The position numbers were made by a program, and so were the translations under genes. A stretch of 64,000 nucleotides of DNA from Norana najaformis (Eukaryota; Annelida; Clitellata; Crassiclitellata; Hormogastridae): the NCBI GenBank assembly GCA_964023275.1, contig OZ029918.1, positions 36,045,063 to 36,109,062 of the forward strand, given 5' to 3'. The stretch's first letter is position 1. The number at the start of each line of letters is the position of its first letter. A model generated the notes under the pieces. That model was not told the DNA's origin. It did no database searches and was given only the letters and a program-made list of their open reading frames with translations. Below, piece by piece: positions 4,698 to 60,987 of this stretch.

Positions 4698-4880
4698 TAC
4701 CTTGCCTTGCCTTGCCTTGCCTTGCCTTGCCTTGCCTTGCCTTGCCTTGCCTTGCCTTGCCTTGCCTTGCCTTGCCTTGCCTTGCCTTGCCTTGCCTTGC
4801 CTTGCCTTGCCTTGCCTTACCTTACCTTACCTTACCTTACCTTACCTTACCTTACCTTACCTTACCTTACCTTACCTTAC
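4698..4880. repeat. (CCTTG)n(CCTTA)n pentanucleotide array, left flank of the LTR element
   Basis: About 24 CCTTG units switch to about 13 CCTTA units and stop exactly where the LTR-like sequence begins. The CCTTA type resumes at 8207 on the far side of the element, which suggests insertion into a pre-existing array. Confidence 0.95.
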
Positions 4881-8206: not shown

Positions 8207-8463
8207 CTTACCTTACCTTACCTTACCTTACCTTACCTTACCTTACCTTACCTTACCTTACCTTACCTTACCTTACCTTACCTTACCTTACCTTACCTTA
8301 CCTTACCTTACCTTACCTTACCTTACCTTACCTTACCTTACCTTACCTTACCTTACCTTACCTTACCTTACCTTACCTTACCTTACCTTACCTTACCTTA
8401 CCTTACCTTACCTTACCTTACCTTACCTTACCTTACCTTACCTTACCTTACCTTACCTTACCT
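8207..8463. repeat. (CCTTA)n array, right flank of the LTR element
   Basis: About 50 almost perfect CTTAC units. The motif lacks the G-rich pattern of telomeric repeats. Confidence 0.95.
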
Positions 8464-12050: not shown

Positions 12051-12256
12051 TTTACATTACATTAACTTGACTTAGATAAGGCAAGATACTACTACCACTA
12101 CAACTACTACTACTACTAATAATAATAATAACTTGCATGACAGGGCCTTAGCCTACTTTACTTGAATCTGCCTTACCTCATGTTACCTTGCCTCATATTA
12201 CCTTACCTTACCTTCCTGACCTGACCTGACCTGACCTTACCTTACCTTACCTTACC
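12040..12256. repeat. CTTAC/CTGAC-rich degenerate array
   Basis: Pentanucleotides of the CCTTA and CCTGA type with an embedded ACTACT tract. Confidence 0.8.
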
Positions 12257-14842: not shown

Positions 14843-38357
<23,515 letters not shown>

Positions 38358-43699: not shown

Positions 43700-45667
43700 T
43701 TAGCGATGCTTTGCCTTGTCTAGAATCGGCGCAGCGACAAACTCCAATTTGTTATTAGGCTTTTCGAGTTCAAAAACGATGATTTCATTGCGGCCTTTCC
43801 TGAGAAATGGTTTCGGAACGTACAGAGTCTGCTGTGGACCGATGTTCCAGTATCTACCGATGTTGAAACCGTTAATGAGGACAATTCCTTTCGTCCAGCG
43901 CTGCATGTCAAGGAAAGTGTCTTCCACGCTGTCTGCGTTCAGAAAGCCACGGTAAAGCGATGGAGACGATTCGGCAGCGTAAGACTGCCATGACTTTGAC
44001 TGCTGAACTTCCAAAACAAATTTGTCTGAAAAGTCGAGGGAAATCTGCTGCCATGGCGTCAATGTTTTTCCATCCAGTTCCACCTTGCCCTGAAGTCCGC
44101 AGTGCTGGCCATCCAGCGTTTTAAAGTTGACACGGCCCATGTTTTCAACCAAAATATCCAGAGTGTTAATTTCCTTCTGCAGTGCGTCCAGCTTGATCGT
44201 TTGTTCCACTACAGCATCTGATCTGCTGTGGATGACTGTCAGCAATTTCCCATTTACAAATATCTGAGCTCGATCCTGTAGCCTCACTTCAAGTCTCAGC
44301 GACTTGCCCGAAGTAAACAAGTGTCTGTAGAGAATCCAACCGTACCCCTGACCATTACCATCATCGATGTTTAAGAACTCCATAAACAACGGCTGGACAG
44401 ATGTCGTCAGCTTGCTAGGCACCAGCCTGATGACATCTTCCAGTCGAAGGATTTCCGTGATGGCAACTTCTCCAAACGCCATCTTTGGAGAATTCGGAGG
44501 TACGGGTGGTAGAGGTTTCTCAACTAGACCGTGTTTCAGAAGCAACTTCCGAAATGCCACGAACTTAGTGGGATGGATGTCACCATCCTCCGAAATTGGG
44601 GCATCGTAATCGTAGCTGGTAACCGTTGCCAGGTTGGTCTTGCTGTTGGCATTTGCTCCGTTCAAGAAGCCAAAGTTCGTTCCACCGACAAACATGTAGA
44701 AGTTGATCGAGGCCTTACGCGACAGAATCGTGTCGATCTTCTCCGTGAATTCCTCCTCTGGCATTTCGTGATGATCTTCACCCCAGTGGTCAAACCAACC
44801 AGGCCAGAACTCAGTCACCAAGAGTGGTTTGTCTGGTTGGAACTTCTCAAGGGCGTCCAAAGCCGCCGTAGGATTTTTGTTAAAATTCACTGATGTCAAG
44901 AAACCGGGCAGCGCGCCCTCGAAAAGACTGTCCTTGCCATCCGAGGTAAACAGCAGCTCGTAAATTTCGTGGTGATCGTAAAGTCCTTGGAGAAACTGGA
45001 GATATTCAAGGTCGTGGCCGTAGCTTCCAAATTCGTTTTCAATCTGAAATGCCATGATTGGTCCACCATTCTTATAGGCATACTTTGCCAAGAGGGGCAG
45101 AAGCTGGTTGAAATAGCGCTCCACGTGATCCAGGTAGGGCTTGTACTTGGATGTTCGTACCGACATGTTGGCATCGCGTAGGAGCCATGAAGGCAGCCCC
45201 CCGAATTCCCACTCGGCACAGATATATGGTCCTGGCCGCACGATCAGATGCAGTCCCACCTTCTGAACAAGCTCAATGAATTCGGGGAGGTTAAACAGTC
45301 CCCTGAACTCATACCTACCACGAACCTGCTCGTGAAGATTCCATGCGACGTATGTTGTTATGGTGTTCAGTCCGGCGGCTTTCATTTTCTCCAGTCGATC
45401 AAGCCACTGTTGCGGGTGAGTACGGAAATAGTGGAACGAACCGCCGAGAATTCTAAATGGTTTGCCGTTGAAGTAGAAGTTTTTGTTGTAGGCAACAAGG
45501 CCTCGGTTGTCATTATCCGGACACTTATCTCCCCTGCAGCTGGACTGGTCAGCATGGAAGCGCACCTCGGGATCCTCCACGACCGGCAAATTTGCCATCT
45601 TCCAACCAATAAGTACAAGAGTCACGATTAAAACTGCAACCGCCACTTTCTTAATCGTCATTCTCAT
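43700..45667 (-). CDS. GH35 beta-galactosidase-1-like protein, single coding exon
   Basis: Complete 655-codon frame. It is predicted to hydrolyse terminal beta-galactosides by a retaining mechanism. Residues 8-22 are a hydrophobic signal or signal anchor after two lysines; the rest would be lumenal or extracellular. The TIM-barrel starts near residue 60 (GKPFRILGGSFHYFR). VRPGPYICAEWEFGGLPSWL spans residues 143-162. QIENEFGSYG holds the acid/base Glu212 and LLVTEFWPGWFDHWG the nucleophile Glu286. Beta domains follow, with IVLINGFNIGRYW and IGPQQTLYVP near the end. It resembles the GLB1L2/GLB1L3 branch more than lysosomal GLB1. Animal homologues usually have many introns, so this could be a retrocopy that stayed intact, although an upstream non-coding exon is possible (AG acceptor-like ACACAG 3 bp before the ATG). 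Several short opposite-strand frames are shadows. Confidence 0.95.
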   Translation of the reverse strand: MRMTIKKVAVAVLIVTLVLIGWKMANLPVVEDPEVRFHADQSSCRGDKCPDNDNRGLVAYNKNFYFNGKPFRILGGSFHYFRTHPQQWLDRLEKMKAAGLNTITTYVAWNLHEQVRGRYEFRGLFNLPEFIELVQKVGLHLIVRPGPYICAEWEFGGLPSWLLRDANMSVRTSKYKPYLDHVERYFNQLLPLLAKYAYKNGGPIMAFQIENEFGSYGHDLEYLQFLQGLYDHHEIYELLFTSDGKDSLFEGALPGFLTSVNFNKNPTAALDALEKFQPDKPLLVTEFWPGWFDHWGEDHHEMPEEEFTEKIDTILSRKASINFYMFVGGTNFGFLNGANANSKTNLATVTSYDYDAPISEDGDIHPTKFVAFRKLLLKHGLVEKPLPPVPPNSPKMAFGEVAITEILRLEDVIRLVPSKLTTSVQPLFMEFLNIDDGNGQGYGWILYRHLFTSGKSLRLEVRLQDRAQIFVNGKLLTVIHSRSDAVVEQTIKLDALQKEINTLDILVENMGRVNFKTLDGQHCGLQGKVELDGKTLTPWQQISLDFSDKFVLEVQQSKSWQSYAAESSPSLYRGFLNADSVEDTFLDMQRWTKGIVLINGFNIGRYWNIGPQQTLYVPKPFLRKGRNEIIVFELEKPNNKLEFVAAPILDKAKHR

Positions 45668-46302
45668 ATTCTGTGTGCTCGAAACTTTAGCACACCCTTA
45701 TTTAAGGAAGAACGACAACTGCAAACTAACACTTTAATGATAACGATCGATGCGGCGCTATACAATACTCCAGAAGGGTCGAGTTCATTTGGACGTATTT
45801 ACGTCAGAAATCTCCTTTTATCTACAGCGTTATTTTTGTCAGTTCTCGCATCTTTTTAATACATACGCAAAGCCAGGCAATTAAAATCTAGTTAATATTA
45901 CACACAATCGATATTAAAACAAAAACAATAAGTTGCCTGTTACGAGTACTTACTTGTTTGTGGGGATAAGAAAATCAGATGCACCAAAAGTCAGCCGCTG
46001 AGTTACTTCCTTAAAGATTCGAAGCCTATAAAAATTTACTTTCGAAACACTGTACCGCGTGTAAGTATAACTGTAACTCTGTAAACCAACGAAATTCTCA
46101 GTACAACACAAAACTAGTATCCGGGAGACCAGCTTATATACCGCTAATCAGAAGATCCACTAAAGCAGGATGTGGGTCAATTTTGAAGATCGGTGATTAT
46201 TATATATCCTTGGGTCAATTTCTGTAACAGGTCAAAATCCAGAGCGGTCAAGAGGTCTATTGCCCGGGAACTGCACCTGAACTAATTTGCCTCATCGATT
46301 TT

Positions 46303-48449: not shown

Positions 48450-51400
48450 CTAGAACAAAATTCATGCAACATGTCAATAAGTGTATTTCTGGTAACTTGG
48501 CTCAGTGATATGGTGGCCAACTGACTCAAAATGCAGGGGGTAGGTTTGAGCCACCCAGCAGAAGTAGTCACAAAGTCAAGGGAGCAGAAATAGTCACAAA
48601 GGGAGCTGAAATAGTCACAAAGCAAAGGAAGCAGAAATAGTCACAAAGGCAGCTGAAATAGTCACAAAGTCAATGGAGCAGAAATAGTCACAAATGCAGC
48701 TGAAATAGTCACAAAGTCAATGGAGCAGAAACAGTCACAAAGGCAGCTGAAATAGTCACACAGCAAAGGGTGCTGAAATAGTCACAAACTGAAGCATTTG
48801 GTCAGAATGTCCAGCTTGTGTGTGGTCAACTAAAATGGGGCCAGGCCAACTGAATGATTCAATAACACACCTTTGTTTTTGAGCGCCTTGACAAGCTTGT
48901 CACGATGGGCTCCATCACGAGCGTCGACTCCACCCATTGCACCTTGCATGCGTACATTAAGTATCTGACCACTGTAGGTTTTCTGCAAGTAATCAAATAA
49001 CAATTTAAACTCTCTATACAAATGTCCACACGTGCACAAATATTTTATTTATTTATTCTTTTATTTATTAAGGCACTTATAAAAAAATGCGTGCAATGTC
49101 AGTACACCCGAATTTCAGGTGCGGATGTACAAGTATGTTTGCTAGAGGCCAAGATGGAATCATGCAAAAGCCAGGTAAGCCTAGCACATGCTTCTTAGGA
49201 GTTTGCATAGAGGCACATGAAGAAGTGTGTTACCTTTACCTACATGATTCTGAGGTATTTCTAAAGATGCCTGCAAAAAACTGTTATCTTTACCTTCATG
49301 TTTCTGAGCAGTTTCTATAGATGCCCACAAATAAGTTTGTTACCTTTACCTACATGCTACTGAGGTGTTTCTATAGATGCCTGTAAACAAACTGTTACCT
49401 TTACCTACATGTTTCTGAGGTATTTCTACAGATGCCTGCAAACAACTATGCAACCTTTACCTTCATGCTTCTGGGAAGTTTATATATAGATGCCCACTAA
49501 TACGTATGTAACCTTGACCTTCATGTTTCTGAGAAGCTTCTATCACCTTGTCACCTTGTGCTGTCAGCTCTTTGAGCTCTAGCGACCGTCATGATCAATC
49601 TTCTCCATTTCTTTCTTTCCAATGTCGCGTCCCTTAGTTGTGCCAAGTTCATTCCAGTTGCTTCGTGTATCTTGTCCATCCATTTTTTCCTTGGTCTCCC
49701 TTGTTTTCTCTTTCCCTCTCCACAAGCCAGCATCATTTCTTTTTCCAATCCATCTGATCTCATAACATGTCCAAAGAACCTCAGCTTTGATTTTAGCACT
49801 GTTTGTTGTAACGTCTCATCTTGCTCAATTCCAATCGCCCTGCGTACCCATTCATTAGTCCTTTTCTCCGTCCATGATGTTCTCAGCATCTTCCTCCATA
49901 TCCACATTTCACAAGCATTGATTTTTTTCTCTATTTTCTTGGTCATTGTCCACGTCTCACTGCCGTATGTTACTGTTGGTATAATCAAGGCCCTCACCAA
50001 TCTTTTTTTCGTGTCTGTGCTCACATGTTTGTCTTTCCATATTTTTTAATATTTAAGCTTCTATAGATGCCTACAAATAAATGTTACCTTTACCTTGTTT
50101 ACCGCAAAGCATACCTGTAGCTCTGTTATTCCATCGACCAACTTCTTGCCAGTTATTGTTGCATTCTCCAGCAGTTTCTCCTCTTTTATGGCAGCTACTA
50201 ACTGCTCAAGAAGGATCACCTTGACTGGATCTCCCATCCATGTATTAAACACCCGGTAAGCCTGAACATAACAAAAGACAACCATCCGTTAAAAACTTGT
50301 CTTATAGTTCATAAGGTATTACATTTAAATCAGCCGACCTGTCTCTGCTCCTTGCTCACCTCTTGCACAAAAAAACATTGCACTCGATCAGTGGTTGCTT
50401 TGACTCTTGTTGCGCGTTGCACCAAAGTAATCACAATCGTAGTCGTAAACTCGAAATTTCTATAGCGCCCAATGAAAGCCAAGTCATGGGAACCAGCTTA
50501 TTCACTGGCGTGCTTGGTCAAACAAAAATCGATAAGCAAGAAGGGTTCGGTTCCAGATCAAGATCCAAGAGTTGGGCAAGCAGACAGTCAGACGGCTACG
50601 GTGAGTGGTTTTGGAGCAATTGGATCTGCAGGATAAAAAAGGTGGAAGGTCAAACAAAAATCAATAGGCAAGAAGAGTTCAGTGCCAGGTCAAGATCAGT
50701 TATGCAGACAGTCAGACGGCTATGGCGGACGGTGTTTGGAATTGGATCTATAGGATGGATAAGGGGAAGAAGAGGAATGTAGCGTTGGGCTCTTAGGCAT
50801 TCTCGGTGGCTGCTCCAAGGCTTTGGAATTAAATTCCCCATTGAGTGCACTCTGTTAGTTCTTTAAAGCCTTCAGATCTAAACTTAAGAATTGTCTTTTC
50901 AAATTGCTTATCCACCATAGCCTGAATTTTGCTTTTTCTTGCCTATTAAATTTCAGATAGTAGTGGAAAAGGATCTCGAATGTTGTGGTTTTGGGCTCAG
51001 TACTGCATGGAGTAAGACCCAGGGCAGAAAGGCGTGGCATCACATCATCGATATGGCTATGCTCAACTAGAGTATGCCCTCCCGAGAGATATTTCGACCA
51101 GGCTTCTCCAACGGAATCTGATTTCTGTCTCTCGGTTTCACTTGAAACAACCACTAACCGATGCTTTGTGCATCATGATAATGGTGCTATAGAAGTCATC
51201 AGAATACAGATAGGTTACTTACCTCAGTAGGCATAAGTTCATCGGTGAAGTAGAATCCTCCAGTCAGCATCTTCTTACTAAACGTGACGATGTCTGGTGG
51301 AGACGGAAGGTTCCAGGTCTCATGGTGCCACATGCGACCAGTGGCTCCACCACCCGTCTGTACCTCATCCACCATGTAGTAGACGCCTTGCTACGAACAG

Positions 51401-54400
51401 GAAACAAAACAGGTCTTCAGATCTATGCCCGGCTCGCTCATAAGACAACATACTGACTGAATGAGTGACTGATTCACCAAATGATTAGACGAATAACTAA
51501 TCTAATCTAAAGACTTCTATAGCGCCGTTATCACAATGCCCATGGTATCAGTCGATGGTCGCTCCAAGTCAAAATCACAGTCTAAAAATCATAATCCATT
51601 GGAAAAGCCAGGTGGAATTCCAATAATTCAGAGAACCCAGAAGGCAGGCTATGGTGGGTAATCAAGTTGGAATAGCTGTGTCTTAAGTTTATACTGACTA
51701 AACTGACTAACGGACTTACTCACTTACTGACTGACTAACTGTCTGTCTCATTAACTGACTGACTGGCTGAATGAACGACTCAAAAATAAAATAAAAAATG
51801 AATAAAAAATGAAAAATAAATTTTAAAAATGAATAAAAAATTACCCGATTAACTAACTGTCTAGTCAGCTGACTGATTCCTGCATCAGAAAATTAAACTA
51901 GACAATTACACCATGCTTACTCATCAAAATCAATTATGCAAGAACCAGACTGTGTCTTCAGTTTCACTTATGATGTCCAGAAACTCCTGTCCACATTCAT
52001 CATTTCATAATTGTTTAAAATTTTCATTATCTAAAAATATTCCTGTTGCATATTTGAGAAAAACAGCAGCATCTCAAGATAAACCTGGCTACGAAGCGTT
52101 AGCGACTTCAATTACTCAGCCTCGGCATATGAGGGACTGGTGTATCGTCAGTGTACTCATTTTATGTCCGCGTTTGCAATGGGGCACAAGTTGACCTGAA
52201 ATCTTGAAACATCTTTCTGCCCTGGATGCACTTGAACCCTTGAACTTTGGGGTCGACAGTTCAGCATGCTAACCAATAGGCTATTGAAACTCGTTTTACC
52301 TCTTTGCAAAGTTTTTGCAGTCCGCGGAAAAAGTCCGGGTGAGCGTGATTGTCGCCTCCCTCGCCTTGAATCGGTTCCACGAGGACCCCAGCAACTGGAA
52401 CGCCCCGCTTGTCCATTTCGGCAATCTTCTGTCTCACCTTAAACGCAATTCAGATCCAAACAAAACTTACACACAGACAAAATTTAACTCTAAACAAATT
52501 CTGAAAGAAAATTAAATCAAAACCAAATTAGAAACTGAACTAGTTTTAGAGTCAATCAGTCAGTCAATCAGCATTCAGTTTTCATTCTTGTTATATTTCT
52601 GTATATAATAAGCACCACTCCACATAAACAAAGCATCAATAAACAAACTTCCACCAGAATTACGACAATTAATTGATCCATCTTACAAACTCACCATCAC
52701 TTCAACCCTAGCAATCTGTGTGTCGGTCTTCCAATCAAAACTCAAAACATTTCTTTTTTTCAGTTCCTATCCTGACTCCTCTTCTTCCCCTTATCCACTC
52801 TGCAGATCCAATTCCAAACACCACCCACCATAGCCGTCTGCCTGCCCCATGAATTTTGACTTGGAACTGAACCCTTCTTGCCTATCGATTTTGTTTTGAC
52901 TGAGCGCCTGTGAATAAGTTGGTTCCCACGACTCGGCTTTCATTGGGCGCTGCAGAAATCTCGAGATTACGAATCGTGAAGGACTTGATATAGGGCCCTA
53001 TACAGCAACTGTCTCAGAGGCATCTCAAAACTGCACTCTCTGTGTTGTAACTTCTAAGGTGAGCACTCAAACCAGTTGGCTACCATGTCACACAAGTCAG
53101 TCAGCAAGTACAATCGCTGAATAAACTGTTAGCTAAATGCCCCAACAAAGAATTTAATCAGCGCTTTTGACAGATGCTTGAAAGGCGCTATATAAATGCT
53201 TGTTACATTACATTAAACAAAAAGTCAGAGTATTTTCTACCAGTTCAATGCAGCGCGTTGCTTCGGCCTTGTTCTCAGCCTCATGCTTGTCGATTGGGTA
53301 TTTTGATTTTGGAAAGTCGACAAACGGCCAATCGAGATGGACAAAATCCAGCTTATGCTGCCACTTTGTATGAGTTACACTCAGACAACCTACAGCAGAA
53401 ACAACGTCAACGATACTTCAACTCAAACTAAACCAATCCACAAACCAAAACTAACACCCCGTTACTCACCTACTGTTCGTTACCTGATCACTTACCAGTT
53501 GTTACCTGGCCATTTACCAGTTGCTTCATTGTCATTTACCAGTTTTTGCTGCTTATTTTTGTTATCTGGTCATTTACCAGTTGTTTCCTTGTCATTTACC
53601 AGTTGTTTCCTTGTCATTTACCAGTTGCTCCCTTGTCATTTACCAGTTGCTTCCTTGTCATTTACCAGTTGTTACCTGGCCATTTACCAGTTGCTACCTG
53701 GTCATTTGCCAATTGCTTCATTGTCATTTACCAGTTTTTGCTGCTTATTTTTGTTATCTGGTCATTTACCAGTTGTTTCCTCGTCATTTACCAGTTGTTT
53801 CTTTGTCATTTACCAGTTGCTTCCTTGTCATTTACCAGTTGCTTCCTTGTCATTTACCAGTTGCTTCCTTGTCATTTTCCAGTTGCTTCCTTGTCATTTA
53901 CCAGTTGCTTCCTAGTCATTTACCAGTTTTTGCTGCTTATTTTTGTTACCTGATCATTTATCAGTTGCTACCTGGTCACTTACCAGCAGCTGCTTTGTCA
54001 TTTACCAACTTTTCCAGGTCATTTTTGTTATCTGGTCATTTATCAGTCATTTCTTGGTCATTTAACAGTTGTTTATTGGTTATTTACCAGTTGCTACCTG
54101 TTCACTTACAGTGAACTAATCACTCGAGTTGTAGCCTGGCCACATACTGTTGTTTCCTCATCACTTTCCAGTTGCTATCAGTCATATACCAGTTGTTACT
54201 TGGTCATTTACCAGCTGTAACTTAATGGCTTACCAGTTGTTCTGCCATGGAAAGCCTTCGTAAAGGATAGAATTGACAAATGTGGACATCCCGGGAGTTG
54301 GTTCGTAACGGCCGTCCGAATTTCCTCGTCTGATACGGGTCGGCCACCTCGCTTCTTCCGCTACAGAGAACAATATTCTGCGTCAGCAGCCAAAATCGAC

Positions 54401-58734: not shown

Positions 58735-60987
58735 TCAAAGCATTTATATAGCGCCTATTGAAGGAACCTGTCAAGGGAGGGTATTATTTAGAGGCAGTGT
58801 GATTACGAAAGTGGTTGAGCTTGTGGCGCCATCTGCGTTGGATTTCGGCGTTGGCTGTGTTTGCGACCTGGAGAAGAAGGAGGCAGCGTCTTCTTTCCAT
58901 AGGGGACCTCAATTGGAATTATTTTCAATTAAAGACCCGTTCCAGTATTGATCCGTCCATTTTTGCTCTTTTCACTCATCCACTGGTCGTTTTCAAACAC
59001 CCAGTGCCAGGGTGGCAGAGGTGGAAGGCGGAATGGAGAGGAGGTAGGGAGACAGACAGATAGACAATGGTACAAAGGAAGTCAGAGAGACGGAGAGAGA
59101 ATCATGGAAGGAGAGGGATGCAGGAAGGGAGAGAAGCAGGCAGAGAATGGGAAATAGGGAGGGCCGGGAAGGTAAGAGGCAGGGAGAAAGAGAGACAGTG
59201 AGACAAGAAGGATCAAGAGAGGAAGAGAGGGAGACACAGGCAGTGAGACAGGCAGTGCGACAGAGGAGGCAGAGAAGCTACAAGAGGGCAGGCAGCGATG
59301 TATGCATGCAGATAGGCAGGCAGAGATAGAGGGATCGACAGCGAGGCATGGATGCTAGGAACGAGGCAGATAGTGTGATCTAAGATTATTAGGCACCGGA
59401 TGAGAGCCCTGGTATATTCCGGCATTTTCCAGCTGTTTCCCGCCAGCTCTGTAAACAACCTGCGGACAGACGGATGGCTGGCAGAGGGTGTATTCCACAG
59501 CTGCCCTGAGTACGCCCCGAGTGTACACGAGCAGGTTGACTGATTACTCTTCCCGTGTCTCTTAGTCGAATTGTGTTCGGAGCACACTCAGAGCGTACAT
59601 GGACTGCATACAGAGTCTTATCGAGCTCTGGCAGGGCTGAAACTTGAGAAGGGTTTAGCCGATGGGAAAAGCCACGAAGGTCTAGTATCTGGACCCCCTT
59701 GGAAAAGCTCAGGTTGACACGCCATCTAGTGAGACAATATCCAGCTGCCGTTGGAACTTAAATGTAAAATATCCAAATAAACGAAGACGAAATATGTTTA
59801 TATAAGACCTGAATAAAAACTGGCTAAAAATTTATTGTAATCGTAATGTTTTGTTACACTGCATTTGTTACATTGAACAAATGCCTGTGTTCAATGTAAA
59901 GCACTTGATTCATCAGCGCTGCGTCAAGTCAGAGGGGGTGTCCAGAGAAACCATGTACAGAACAAGATCTGGTTGCCAGGAGACCAGAGAGAGGGAAAGA
60001 GACAGAGGGGCTGTTGCAAATGGGTTGAGAGAAATGGGAAGGCAGCAGATTGGAAGGATCGGGGTAATGTTTCCAGCTCGAAAAATCTTGCCAAGAGATG
60101 TTGAAGCAATCTGTACAAAATGGGGTTAAATTTTAAACCAAATAAGAACAGAATATAAATAGAGATCTTGCCAAGCGGTGCTGAGGCAATCTGCGTGTAG
60201 ACATCGAGAAGAGTGTTGCCATCTACGTCGACCAAGTAATTGCCCAGACTCCTTTCGTAATCAACGAACAACTGAATCGCATGACTGTCCTGCAGAATTT
60301 CAGCAAAGGTAAGGTAACGTAAGGTACTCGATTAGTTATTACATGCCTAAGAATTACAACACTTATGATAATAATAATAATACTACAAGTAAGTACTATG
60401 AATCAACGATGATGATGATGACGACGACGACGACGACGATGATGATGATGACAATGAAAACAATGATGATAACAATTTACAAGCATGACGATGATTATTA
60501 GTTATAATGAAGATACCCTGAGTACTGTGAATCAACTCTGATGATGATGATGATGACGACGACGATGATGATCAATATGATGACGACGACGATGATGATC
60601 AATACAATGATGATGATTATCGATGATTATGATTACAGTTATAATAACGACACCCTTATTATTGCAAATCAACTTCAATGACCAATGATGACTGTTCCTG
60701 ATGAATATGTAACAATGACAACGATGACGATGTTGATTTTGAAGATGACGGTCATGACTTGACGACGCAGTCCGCTGTCAGAAAACCACAAAACCATAAC
60801 CACAACCACAATGGTTGTCTCACCTGAATGTTGGACAGTTCCTTGATAAGTTGGATGGATTTTGGTCCTGGGATGTCGGTCTTGACGACTGGTCCTTTGG
60901 GTTCGTTCGGAACTGCAGAGACCACGCTTCGTGAAGCGGTCAACGCTGGAACAGTCTGACGAGGCCACCGTGTCAAGTGCCTTGTCC
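48328..60987 (-). CDS. ABAT: 4-aminobutyrate aminotransferase, mitochondrial, 12 exons, start exon missing
   Basis: PLP enzyme of the GABA shunt: transfers the amino group of GABA to 2-oxoglutarate in the mitochondrial matrix. Exons in transcription order: 60987-60824, 60289-60172, 57644-57595, 56569-56489, 54995-54903, 54360-54234, 53389-53241, 52437-52300, 51390-51223, 50261-50115, 48982-48871 and 48449-48328. All phases agree and give 488 residues to TAA (human precursor 500). Landmarks: presequence-like [46 protein letters not shown] with the two cysteines of the [2Fe-2S] site known in mammalian [51 protein letters not shown] with the PLP lysine (second of the pair); [30 protein letters not shown]. 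The 5' limit of the first exon listed is inferred from an upstream in-frame stop and a TTGCTCTAAG acceptor. The ATG exon was not identified. Confidence 0.94.
48560..48795. repeat. GAAATAGTCACAAAG-based tandem repeat
   Basis: Units of about 22-45 bp such as GCAGCTGAAATAGTCACAAA in ABAT intron 11. Confidence 0.85.
48871..48982 (-). CDS. ABAT: ABAT exon 11
   Basis: Acceptor TTACTTGCAG, donor AAAG|GTGTGT. 37 codons including [20 protein letters not shown] and KLVKALKNK. Confidence 0.92.
49220..50100. repeat. about 57-bp minisatellite in ABAT intron 10, split by a LINE
   Basis: Units contain TTACCTTTACCTACATG, TTCTGAGG and TTTCTATAGATGCCTGCAAA. Five to six units lie at 49220-49543 and one continues at 50065-50100 beyond the inserted LINE. 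Confidence 0.85.
49534..50064 (-). mobile_element. 5'-truncated RTE-like LINE with 10-bp target duplication
   Basis: The 158-codon frame 50024-49551 is the C-terminal end of a non-LTR retrotransposon [68 protein letters not shown]. It ends in a short GACAAGGTGACAAGGTG tail. AAGCTTCTAT is present on both sides (49534-49543 and 50055-50064). Assignment to the RTE-type group rests on these motifs only. Confidence 0.85.
50115..50261 (-). CDS. ABAT: ABAT exon 10
   Basis: Acceptor TATGTTCAG, donor CTACAG|GTATGC. 49 codons: [20 protein letters not shown] up to DGITELQ. Confidence 0.93.
50428..50790 (-). mobile_element. LINE family A 3' end with internal duplication
   Basis: Reverse orientation. 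The block GTCAAACAAAAATCGATAAG to GACGGCTACGG occurs twice (50515-50605 and 50648-50730), giving a longer copy than usual. Confidence 0.7.
50795..51205 (+). mobile_element. LINE family B 3' end with ORF2 C-terminus
   Basis: One frame reads AAPRLWN, then [18 protein letters not shown], like the conserved AAPRLWNxLP...FKxxLKTxLF end of CR1/L2/Jockey-type RT ORFs, with inactivating stops. About 240 bp of 3' UTR follow, ending CATCATGATAATGGTGCTAT then AGAAGTCATCAG. This copy defines family B. Confidence 0.75.
51223..51390 (-). CDS. ABAT: ABAT exon 9, PLP lysine
   Basis: Acceptor TGTTCGTAG, donor ACTGAG|GTAAGT. 56 codons: [20 protein letters not shown] and [20 protein letters not shown]. Confidence 0.94.
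51498..51625 (-). mobile_element. LINE family B 3' end
   Basis: AATCTAATCTAAAGACTTCT then ATAGCGCCGTTATCACAATG in reverse orientation. Confidence 0.65.
52090..52287 (-). mobile_element. tRNA-derived SINE abutting an ABAT splice donor
   Basis: On the minus strand, TAGCCTATTGGTTAGCATG (box A region) and GGTTCAAGTGC (box B region) precede a body with ATGAGTACACTGACG and CTCATATGCCGAGGCTGAG. The head starts about 12 nt after the donor of exon 8. Confidence 0.65.
52300..52437 (-). CDS. ABAT: ABAT exon 8
   Basis: Acceptor CGTTTAAG, donor AAAGAG|GTAAAA. 46 codons: [20 protein letters not shown], then [12 protein letters not shown]. Confidence 0.93.
52690..52975 (+). mobile_element. LINE family A 3' end, long copy
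   Basis: Starts in the ORF-end region (TTACAAACTCACCATCACTT), passes through TTCCAAACACCACCCACCAT and ends GGCGCTGCAGAAATCTCGAG then ATTACGAA. Confidence 0.75.
53150..53220 (+). mobile_element. short retroposon end
   Basis: TTGAAAGGCGCTATATAAATGCTTG followed by TTACATTACATTA: the core with an ATTAC tail, 20 bp from exon 7. Confidence 0.6.
53241..53389 (-). CDS. ABAT: ABAT exon 7
   Basis: Acceptor CTGCTGTAG; completes the Gly of HGRTTG. Encodes [20 protein letters not shown], then [14 protein letters not shown]. Donor GAACTG|GTAGAA. Confidence 0.93.
53480..54233 (-). repeat. about 22-bp splice-donor minisatellite behind ABAT exon 6
   Basis: About 30 or more units, on the minus strand resembling CAACTGGTAAATGACAAGGA. 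The first unit is the real exon 6 donor itself (ACAACTG|GTAAGCC). Longer TTTTGCTGC-containing variants recur near 53545, 53733 and 53927, showing higher-order duplication of about 190 bp. Confidence 0.93.
54234..54360 (-). CDS. ABAT: ABAT exon 6
   Basis: Acceptor TTCTCTGTAG, donor ACAACTG|GTAAGC, phase 1. 42 codons: [20 protein letters not shown], then [20 protein letters not shown] and TT. Confidence 0.94.
54903..54995 (-). CDS. ABAT: ABAT exon 5, iron-sulfur cysteines
   Basis: Acceptor GGATCGTAG, donor TACATG|GTTTGC. 31 codons with [20 protein letters not shown]; the CGSC pair matches the cluster-binding cysteines of mammalian GABA-T. Confidence 0.94.
55030..55275 (-). mobile_element. tRNA-derived SINE
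   Basis: Minus strand: TAGTAACGTGCTTGGTCAAT and box-B-like GCGGGTTCGATTCCG, followed by a body of about 170 bp. Confidence 0.65.
55385..55530 (+). mobile_element. tRNA-derived SINE
   Basis: GGTAGTGTGCTGGGTCTGC and box-B-like TGGGTTTGAATCTGC at about 55440. Confidence 0.55.
55548..55655 (+). mobile_element. LINE family A 3' end, short
   Basis: GATTTTGTTTTGACTGAGCG, GGGCGCTGTAGAAATCTCGG, then ATTACGATTACGATTAC. Confidence 0.75.
55855..56455. repeat. (GA)n/(GACA)n purine-rich microsatellite
   Basis: About 600 bp of GAGA/GACAGA in ABAT intron 3; Ser/Leu frames on the opposite strand are its translations. Confidence 0.92.
56489..56569 (-). CDS. ABAT: ABAT exon 4
   Basis: Acceptor GAACTGTTAG, donor CTATCC|GTCTGT (weak). 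27 codons: [27 protein letters not shown]. Confidence 0.92.
56760..56915. repeat. (ACAT)n/(ACAC)n microsatellite
   Basis: Follows a short retroposon end with GGTGCTATTTAAAGTC at 56737. Confidence 0.85.
56925..57218 (+). mobile_element. LINE family A 3' end with ORF2 C-terminus
   Basis: The best preserved coding end: [20 protein letters not shown], then [20 protein letters not shown] and a stop. The 3' UTR ends GGGCGCTGTAGAAATCTTGG and ATTACGATTACG. Confidence 0.8.
57357..57530 (+). mobile_element. tRNA-derived SINE, most complete copy
   Basis: Box A region TAGCCTAGTGGTTAGCATG (57359), box B GGTTCAAATCC (57404), body, then CTGGCGCTATATAGACGCCT and a TACATTACATT tail. It shows a tRNA head joined to the common 3' core. 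Confidence 0.8.
57595..57644 (-). CDS. ABAT: ABAT exon 3
   Basis: 50 bp. Acceptor ACTATTCTAG, donor AATCTT|GTGAGT. Completes Gly and adds [16 protein letters not shown]. Confidence 0.92.
57740..58095. repeat. (GTAT)n microsatellite
   Basis: GTAT with TTTATG variants in ABAT intron 2. Confidence 0.92.
58435..58735. repeat. (GTAT)n then (TA)n microsatellite
   Basis: A GTATGCAT-type block followed by about 40 TA units (58650-58732) that serves as the tail next to the reversed core CATTTATATAGCGCCTATTG. Confidence 0.92.
59030..59345. repeat. GA-rich degenerate repeat
   Basis: AGGCAGAGAGA-type purine-rich DNA without a clean unit. Confidence 0.75.
60072..60115 (-). repeat. partial duplicate of ABAT exon 2 end and its GC donor
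   Basis: On the minus strand, CAGATTGCTTCAACATCTCT then TGGCAAGAT mirrors the end of exon 2 (CAGATTGCCTCAGCACCGCT then TGGCAAGAT). It lies about 80 bp farther into the intron. Confidence 0.8.
60172..60289 (-). CDS. ABAT: ABAT exon 2, GC donor
   Basis: Acceptor AAATTCTGCAG. 39 codons: [20 protein letters not shown], then [19 protein letters not shown]. The only junction giving the required Gly-Tyr-Asn with exon 3 uses the donor CTTG|GCAAGA, a GC-AG intron. Confidence 0.92.
60385..60625. repeat. (GAT)n/(GAC)n trinucleotide array
   Basis: Two GATGAC blocks share TGAATCAAC flanks about 135 bp apart, so the array includes a duplication. Confidence 0.88.
60824..60987 (-). CDS. ABAT: ABAT first recognised exon: presequence end and mature N-terminus
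   Basis: Donor ATTCAG|GTGAGA. Encodes [20 protein letters not shown] (basic, no acidic residue, like a mitochondrial targeting peptide), then [20 protein letters not shown]. The upstream limit at 60987 is the TCTAAG acceptor that skips an in-frame TAA; an ATG exon must lie further upstream. Confidence 0.75.

Follow-up and report, generated by a model that had tools for sequence, protein, structure and literature searches.

A minisatellite in register with a 5' splice site of ABAT fills most of the following intron in an annelid

The window, as the whole stretch of 64,000 nucleotides analysed is called here, carries exons of ABAT on its minus strand and parts of a WAP/FN3 gene on its plus strand. 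The latter spans 14822-36399 with at least eight candidate exons, one intron of ~15 kb and two arrays at splice junctions. Pfam returned WAP at 22.1 bits and one fn3 domain at 34.4 bits, both above cut-off, and further fn3 pieces below it; the gene is presumably an anosmin and is called anosmin-like. Farther along the minus strand, downstream of ABAT, a 665-aa stop-to-stop frame at 43700-45697 (-) was read by eye as beta-galactosidase-1-like. An ABAT exon ends at 60172 (-) with an apparent GC donor CTTG/GCAAGA (a slash marks the splice border throughout), and the next exon was not recognised in the window. We take the exon expected there to be the NHP..NRPALGILPP part of ABAT.

The ABAT exon named exon 6 in the initial annotation was delimited by tblastn with pig GABA-T (Table 1). 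At its border, ...HGRT[T]G/CLSVTHTK is aligned to HGRTMGCLATTHSK of the pig protein, giving the pattern HGRT-x-G/CL..TH.K. The authentic donor is thus AACAACTG/GTAAGCC, with the border at 54234/54233 on the minus strand. At the codon of the exon end that is covered by the repeat, HGRTTG is found here and HGRTMG in pig.

Table 1. Positions of the ABAT features and of the repeat arrays near splice junctions in the window
Feature	Position	Strand	Remarks
ABAT exon (exon 6 of the initial annotation)	54234..54360	-	Ends ...CAGAACAACTG; last 8 nt are part of unit 1; tblastn with pig GABA-T
Acceptor of ABAT exon 54234..54360		-	TTCTCTGTAG/CGGAAG
ABAT 5' splice site GT (CTG/GTAAGC), predicted	54232..54233	-	Frame and homology; PWM 9.57, U1 duplex -8.0 kcal/mol
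Donor-anchored minisatellite, ~36 x 22 bp, 192-bp higher-order repeat	53466..54241	-	
ABAT intron, 844 nt, 27 donor-like sites of at least 6 bits	53390..54233	-	
Downstream ABAT exon, start 53389	53241..53389	-	Pig GABA-T homology
56-bp GGTAAAGGTAACA minisatellite in another ABAT intron	49186..50096	-	First copy ~20 nt past donor 50115; not exon-spanning
Anosmin-like intron of 672 nt, mostly 20-bp GGTAAGGTATATGTTAACAA units	31054..31725	+	Donor TACAAG/GTAAGGTACAAGTTAA in register; 40 donor-like sites of at least 6 bits
Acceptor-spanning array, 5 x 46 bp (97%)	34865..35094	+	TTTTCTTGTTCCAG/GAGAACTTCCTGACCTTGACTGACCTGA; true acceptor and exon start lie in the last copy
Exon-intron junction in second copy	15690..15860	+	ACAGATTGCTCAG/GTAAGCAAGGTAGGA at ~15690-15717, repeated at ~15832-15860

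About 30 units of ~22 bp had initially been described as following this donor. The sequence, TRF and wraparound alignment confirmed the array and its modal unit of 22 bp (CAACTGGTAAATGACCAGGTAA), and raised the number of units to ~36; the array also starts not at the donor but 8 nt inside the exon, at AACAACTG. It covers 768 of the 844 nt of the intron (91%), and the final 76 nt, with the CTGCTGTAG acceptor, lie outside it. Its higher-order period was found by TRF. Units 11, 15, 24 and 33 are truncated to 16 bp, and units 6 and 7 are short and degenerate. The donor belongs to unit 1 and stands in register, although this unit shares 68% identity with the unit consensus and its exonic match is just 8 nt. 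Towards the exon the units are degenerate, and many of the distal ones have an identical counterpart in the array, as expected where units at the edge escape homogenisation. The array shares the layout of the mirages of amphioxus considered below, in that its units run across the exon-intron boundary and the boundary copy would be the functional site, the use of which is predicted from homology.

Register was assessed by scoring the 22-mers of the window against a profile derived from 29 other units of the ABAT array cut as 22-mers. The 22-mer that contains the donor scored 10.0, a value matched or exceeded by 4 of the 126,316 window 22-mers outside the array and by none of the 237 that carry GTAAG at the equivalent position. 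The 22 nt of exon just before it scored -25.9, which marks the limit of the array. A search of the 608-Mb genome that passed over simple repeats and words of very high frequency returned the array itself and a single match of 67%; within that search the unit is therefore specific to its locus, as in mirages. The 67% match is an A-rich GGTAAA array (L034, C2:45073191-45073525) in an intron of a BRSK-like gene, recognised by a KA1_BRSK exon, and runs antisense to the gene. These data, with the 8 exonic nucleotides and the in-register donor of unit 1, support the earlier proposal that the array was seeded at the exon border.

Donor-like sites were scored with a donor PWM and by duplex energy with the U1 5' end. 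The sense strand of 54245-53460 contains 27 sites of at least 6 bits, the true donor included, as compared with 3.1 expected from the density in the window and 4.7 ± 2.0 in 200 dinucleotide shuffles of the array; at the same threshold its antisense strand contains none. Hence, the proposed ladder of U1-binding sites that begins at the true donor is real, but most of its interior units carry CTG/GTAAAT, which is weaker (PWM 6.98, U1 duplex -5.3 kcal/mol) than the true CTG/GTAAGC. By PWM score, three other sites exceeded the true donor, those at 53983 and 53495 (10.81) and at 53469 (10.57). By U1 duplex energy, 8 of 58 GTs, among them the true donor, reached -8.0 kcal/mol or stronger.

The further suggestion that the array forms a field of redundant donors did not hold. 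Joining any of the 26 alternative sites to the next ABAT exon gives an in-frame stop, and the frame is kept at 1 of the 27 sites, the true donor. With an open frame, and thus a usable mRNA, at 0 of the 26, these sites are not redundant donors. Neither was preferential conservation of the donor positions, as a functional decoy or redundant array would have, found by column conservation: in the nine exon-proximal profile units the GT columns (G 0.67, T 0.78) are no better kept than the T, G, A, C columns 12-15 (0.89). No sign of selection was thus found in the unit columns.

The anosmin-like gene includes a second donor-anchored array, which contains 27 GGTAAG. The flanks of its donor fitted a 7-unit profile better than did those of the remaining 103 GGTAAG in the window, of which 65 lie in (GGTAA)n, but just 3 exonic nucleotides recur in the exact-copy test. 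Nine of the 40 donor-like sites in the intron tie with the true donor and one is stronger; the true donor alone keeps the frame (1 of 40). The other junction array of the gene is an acceptor-side version of the mirage anatomy. Each 46-bp copy consists of a polypyrimidine-CAG stretch and 28 exonic nucleotides, and the fifth and last provides the acceptor at 35066, in the frame VTQ/ENFLTL. The long intron of the gene holds a 53-bp minisatellite at 27567-28360 (15 copies, 92% identity).

To place these junctions among the others of the window, 17 donors and 16 acceptors were mapped, and recurrence within a junction's own intron was defined as a match of at least 15 of 22 positions. Two donors, 54234 (12 matches) and 31053 (4), and one acceptor, 35066 (4), recur. 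In addition, donor 15702 has one second copy in its own intron, and the GC donor at 60172 has one own-intron match, fewer than its probe finds elsewhere. The remaining mapped donors and acceptors of the window showed no own-intron recurrence at this threshold. The 54234 probe gave 7 further matches beyond other donors, which are put down to the 1 kb past exon end 54903 extending into the array.

In the other ABAT intron with a minisatellite (Table 1), the rest of the 56-bp array sits past an inserted retroelement-like fragment at ~50055-49545 (-). By eye this fragment reads as non-LTR type; it has ATAGAAGCTT on both sides and splits the minisatellite.

Similar arrays elsewhere in the genome were sought through tandem CAGGTAAGT. 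Thirty loci were hand-picked from 55 clusters in the 100 matches listed of 122, ten of them because their copy numbers were high; one locus is represented twice, by its copies L040 and L054. An exon-like donor stands at the start of the array in 10 of the 30 (L036, L039, L042, L047, L048, L050, L051, L053, L055 and L058). Of the other 20, L046 had a copy score within the control range, and the rest showed no recognisable exon where the array begins. The copy score is the length of the recurring exonic suffix plus the number of identical bases at intronic positions +1 to +12, for the best copy within 700 nt. The ten anchored loci scored 15-32, the ABAT donor 14, the anosmin-like donor 13, a Kv-channel exon 12 and L046 10, as compared with 7-11 for the 14 GT donors of the window that served as controls, save the two-copy donor 15702, which scored 18. 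Since the loci were selected for repeating CAGGTAAGT, part of the donor similarity arises by construction (9 points where the donor is CAGGTAAGT). A cut-off of at least 5 exonic or at least 9 intronic bases was reached at 4 of the 14 control donors and is too lenient; hence the summed scores were used.

Three of the anchored exons gave Pfam matches above cut-off. In the EGF_CA exon 10 exonic nucleotides recur (23-bp unit, 9 copies), in the Peptidase_M14 (carboxypeptidase) exon 22 (33-bp unit, 2.8 copies), and in the nuclear factor I exon (NfI_DNAbd_pre-N) 5 (23-bp unit, 14 copies). The recurring tail is 16 nt in L039 and 13 nt in L048, and 4-5 nt in six loci including nuclear factor I. The open frames of L036, L039, L048, L050 and L051 had no match in Pfam, nor did that of L039 in PDB; L047 (Tektin) fell below the Pfam cut-off and L055 is too short for the scan. 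Open frames are weak evidence of an exon. The same anatomy at other exons, with 10-22 exonic nucleotides recurring in the units of some, adds to the case for seeding at the border.

L046, where a distance of 16 nt separates the end of a 7tm_2 exon from the first CAGGTAAGT unit, was considered as a donor-anchored locus but dropped, its score lying within the control range. The array of L044 begins ~43 nt past the apparent donor, and that of L038 ~300 nt past a dynein exon (AAA_7). On the opposite strand, L082 is a donor array with a 20-bp unit at the Kv-channel exon mentioned above (BTB_2, 1e-29; KCNC1 in PDB, 2.6e-4), and copying there is confined to the intronic side (intronic 12/12, exonic 0). 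L083 extends to a Slit-like acceptor, with which just 26 nt of the unit align. Among 19 clusters of triple TTTTGCAG, sampled for the acceptor motif (C1:55589343 by its end portion alone), no clear exon was seen by eye at the last TTTTGCAG, beside which open frames reach up to 91 codons.

Minisatellites of this layout recall the mirages of amphioxus, for which Canestro 2002 is said to be the original Adh paper. Mirages, as presented in the available excerpts, are minisatellite-like duplications of exon-intron boundaries in Adh3 and the globins BflGb6 and BflGb9, with PGBD5 and TnC as cited there; their units range from 10-72 bp (Adh3) to ~150-160 bp (globins) and lie on the donor or the acceptor side, and many copies carry splice signals, which is suggested to be harmless to splicing (PMC3087553, PMC3902484). 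Like them, as far as those excerpts go, the ABAT and anosmin-like arrays consist of tandem units over a donor or acceptor junction. Unlike them, the units here are mostly intronic, the ABAT copies number ~36 and fill nearly all of the intron, and several loci come from one genome, probably of another phylum. Tandem duplication over a splice boundary is known to add splice signals, including in the potato RdRp case (excerpts of PMC3443670 and PMC4974935). The present arrays likewise add splice signals, but their donors lie inside an existing intron. In the excerpt of PMC12783039, the first introns of earthworm metallothionein genes contain large minisatellites whose monomers average 178 and 181 bp; these too are annelid intronic minisatellites, for which no junction-spanning units are described in that excerpt. 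No report of minisatellites at annelid splice junctions was found among the papers listed by literature searches that leave out most subscription journals, nor were mirages outside lancelets described in the parts of those papers that were available. The ABAT array is a large form of splice-boundary minisatellite, a kind already known, and probably stands in a new phylum.

The likeliest origin of the array is a local tandem duplication across the exon-intron junction followed by expansion. The duplication would have taken in the donor together with the end of the exon on one side and the start of the intron on the other, and unequal exchange or slippage may then have expanded the duplicated unit to most of the intron. 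Such a history would account for the register and the exonic tails, for a unit confined to its locus and for the degeneracy of the units next to the exon. The array itself would be passive. Its exon-proximal donor would remain with the exon and be chosen by exon definition and 5' proximity, and use of a downstream copy would lead to the in-frame stop, so that rare mis-splicing would be cleared by nonsense-mediated decay. We propose that use of the exon-proximal site is what makes the array tolerable; the likely filter is that just those arrays survive that keep a working site at the exon-side edge. Given similar copying at other genes, the ABAT array seems to be one instance of an accident of repeat growth that recurs, and not a special splicing device.

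This explanation does not need donors to be hot spots. Of 264,000 bp sampled, 8,990 (3.4%) belong to minisatellites; at this density chance alone would bring about 1 of 33 junctions into contact with an array, and the 3 of 33 found are no clear excess. Splice donors may still be recurrent birth sites of minisatellites, through a process tied to the junction, such as U1 binding or R-loop formation on transcribed DNA, or duplication tolerated only there, by which 5' splice sites become ladders of donors as strong or stronger, though we think this rather unlikely. A donor-like motif occurs in 11 of 68 minisatellite units, as compared with 3.9 expected from mononucleotide shuffles only; these 11 count the ABAT array twice and both anosmin-intron arrays and are treated as weak. 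Genome-wide motif counts gave no excess over reversed-motif controls, either for tandem CAGGTAAGT pairs (122 against 239, a control that looks inflated by TGGATGAA-type microsatellites), for single CAGGTAAGT (7,076 against 7,378) or for triple TTTTGCAG (67 against 199).

The order of events could also have been the reverse, an intronic minisatellite coming first and its edge being written into the exon end by conversion or slippage. The residue that differs from pig at the repeat-covered codon indicates that this position tolerates change. However, the repeated tail of the carboxypeptidase exon lies inside the above-cut-off Pfam match, and that of the EGF exon partly so, which makes the exon the likelier source there and the reverse order improbable. 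We consider it just as improbable that the whole intron was born by tandem duplication of an exonic segment with a proto-splice site. Published work presents that model for tandem genomic duplication (PMC3443670), and it has been suggested for the mirages of amphioxus (PMC3087553), as the excerpts of both papers have it. The share of the ABAT intron taken up by the array suits it; against it, the last part of the intron and its acceptor stand outside the array.

Still less probable is a ladder kept by selection for U1 recruitment, decoy competition or protection from premature cleavage. Its donor-like sites of at least 6 bits all lie on the sense strand, and sense-oriented ladders occur in two genes of one window. 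Yet the donor columns are not preferentially kept in the exon-proximal units, most interior units have the weaker GTAAAT, the GGTAAA array of the BRSK-like intron is antisense to its gene, and the acceptor-spanning array of like kind repeats a 3' splice site instead. That an unrelated, independently placed satellite landed next to the donor by chance is highly improbable despite the abundance of GGTAA-rich tracts (triple GGTAAG 20,274 times genome-wide, 5,395 reversed), given the in-register unit 1, which no other GTAAG context equals, and the lack of a further close copy in the genome search as filtered above.

The excess of triple GGTAAG was set aside as evidence for enrichment at donors, as many of the 100 matches listed are (GGTAA)n-like tracts. 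Such pentanucleotide tracts read as tandem donors and are common genome-wide; in the window they lie at 4816-4876, 8207-8462 and 12172-12256 (-).

The same anatomy at several genes of a probable annelid, with tens of donors per intron, would make this a wider route for the growth of introns and the gain of cryptic sites. The arrays are also ready natural substrates for the question of how one donor is chosen among many of equal or greater strength. If donors were indeed birth sites, the introns that offer a natural test of how the spliceosome chooses the first donor could number in the hundreds.

An amphioxus host, at first suggested by the mirage literature, was dropped, as two observations lean towards an annelid. 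The genome gave 29 matches to the erythrocruorin-linker family PF16915, which is presumably annelid-restricted (best E 8.1e-32; the 14 control genomes are prokaryotic). L009 and L010, both on C15, were read by eye as degenerate nuclear mitochondrial copies with the order ND2-COX1-COX2.
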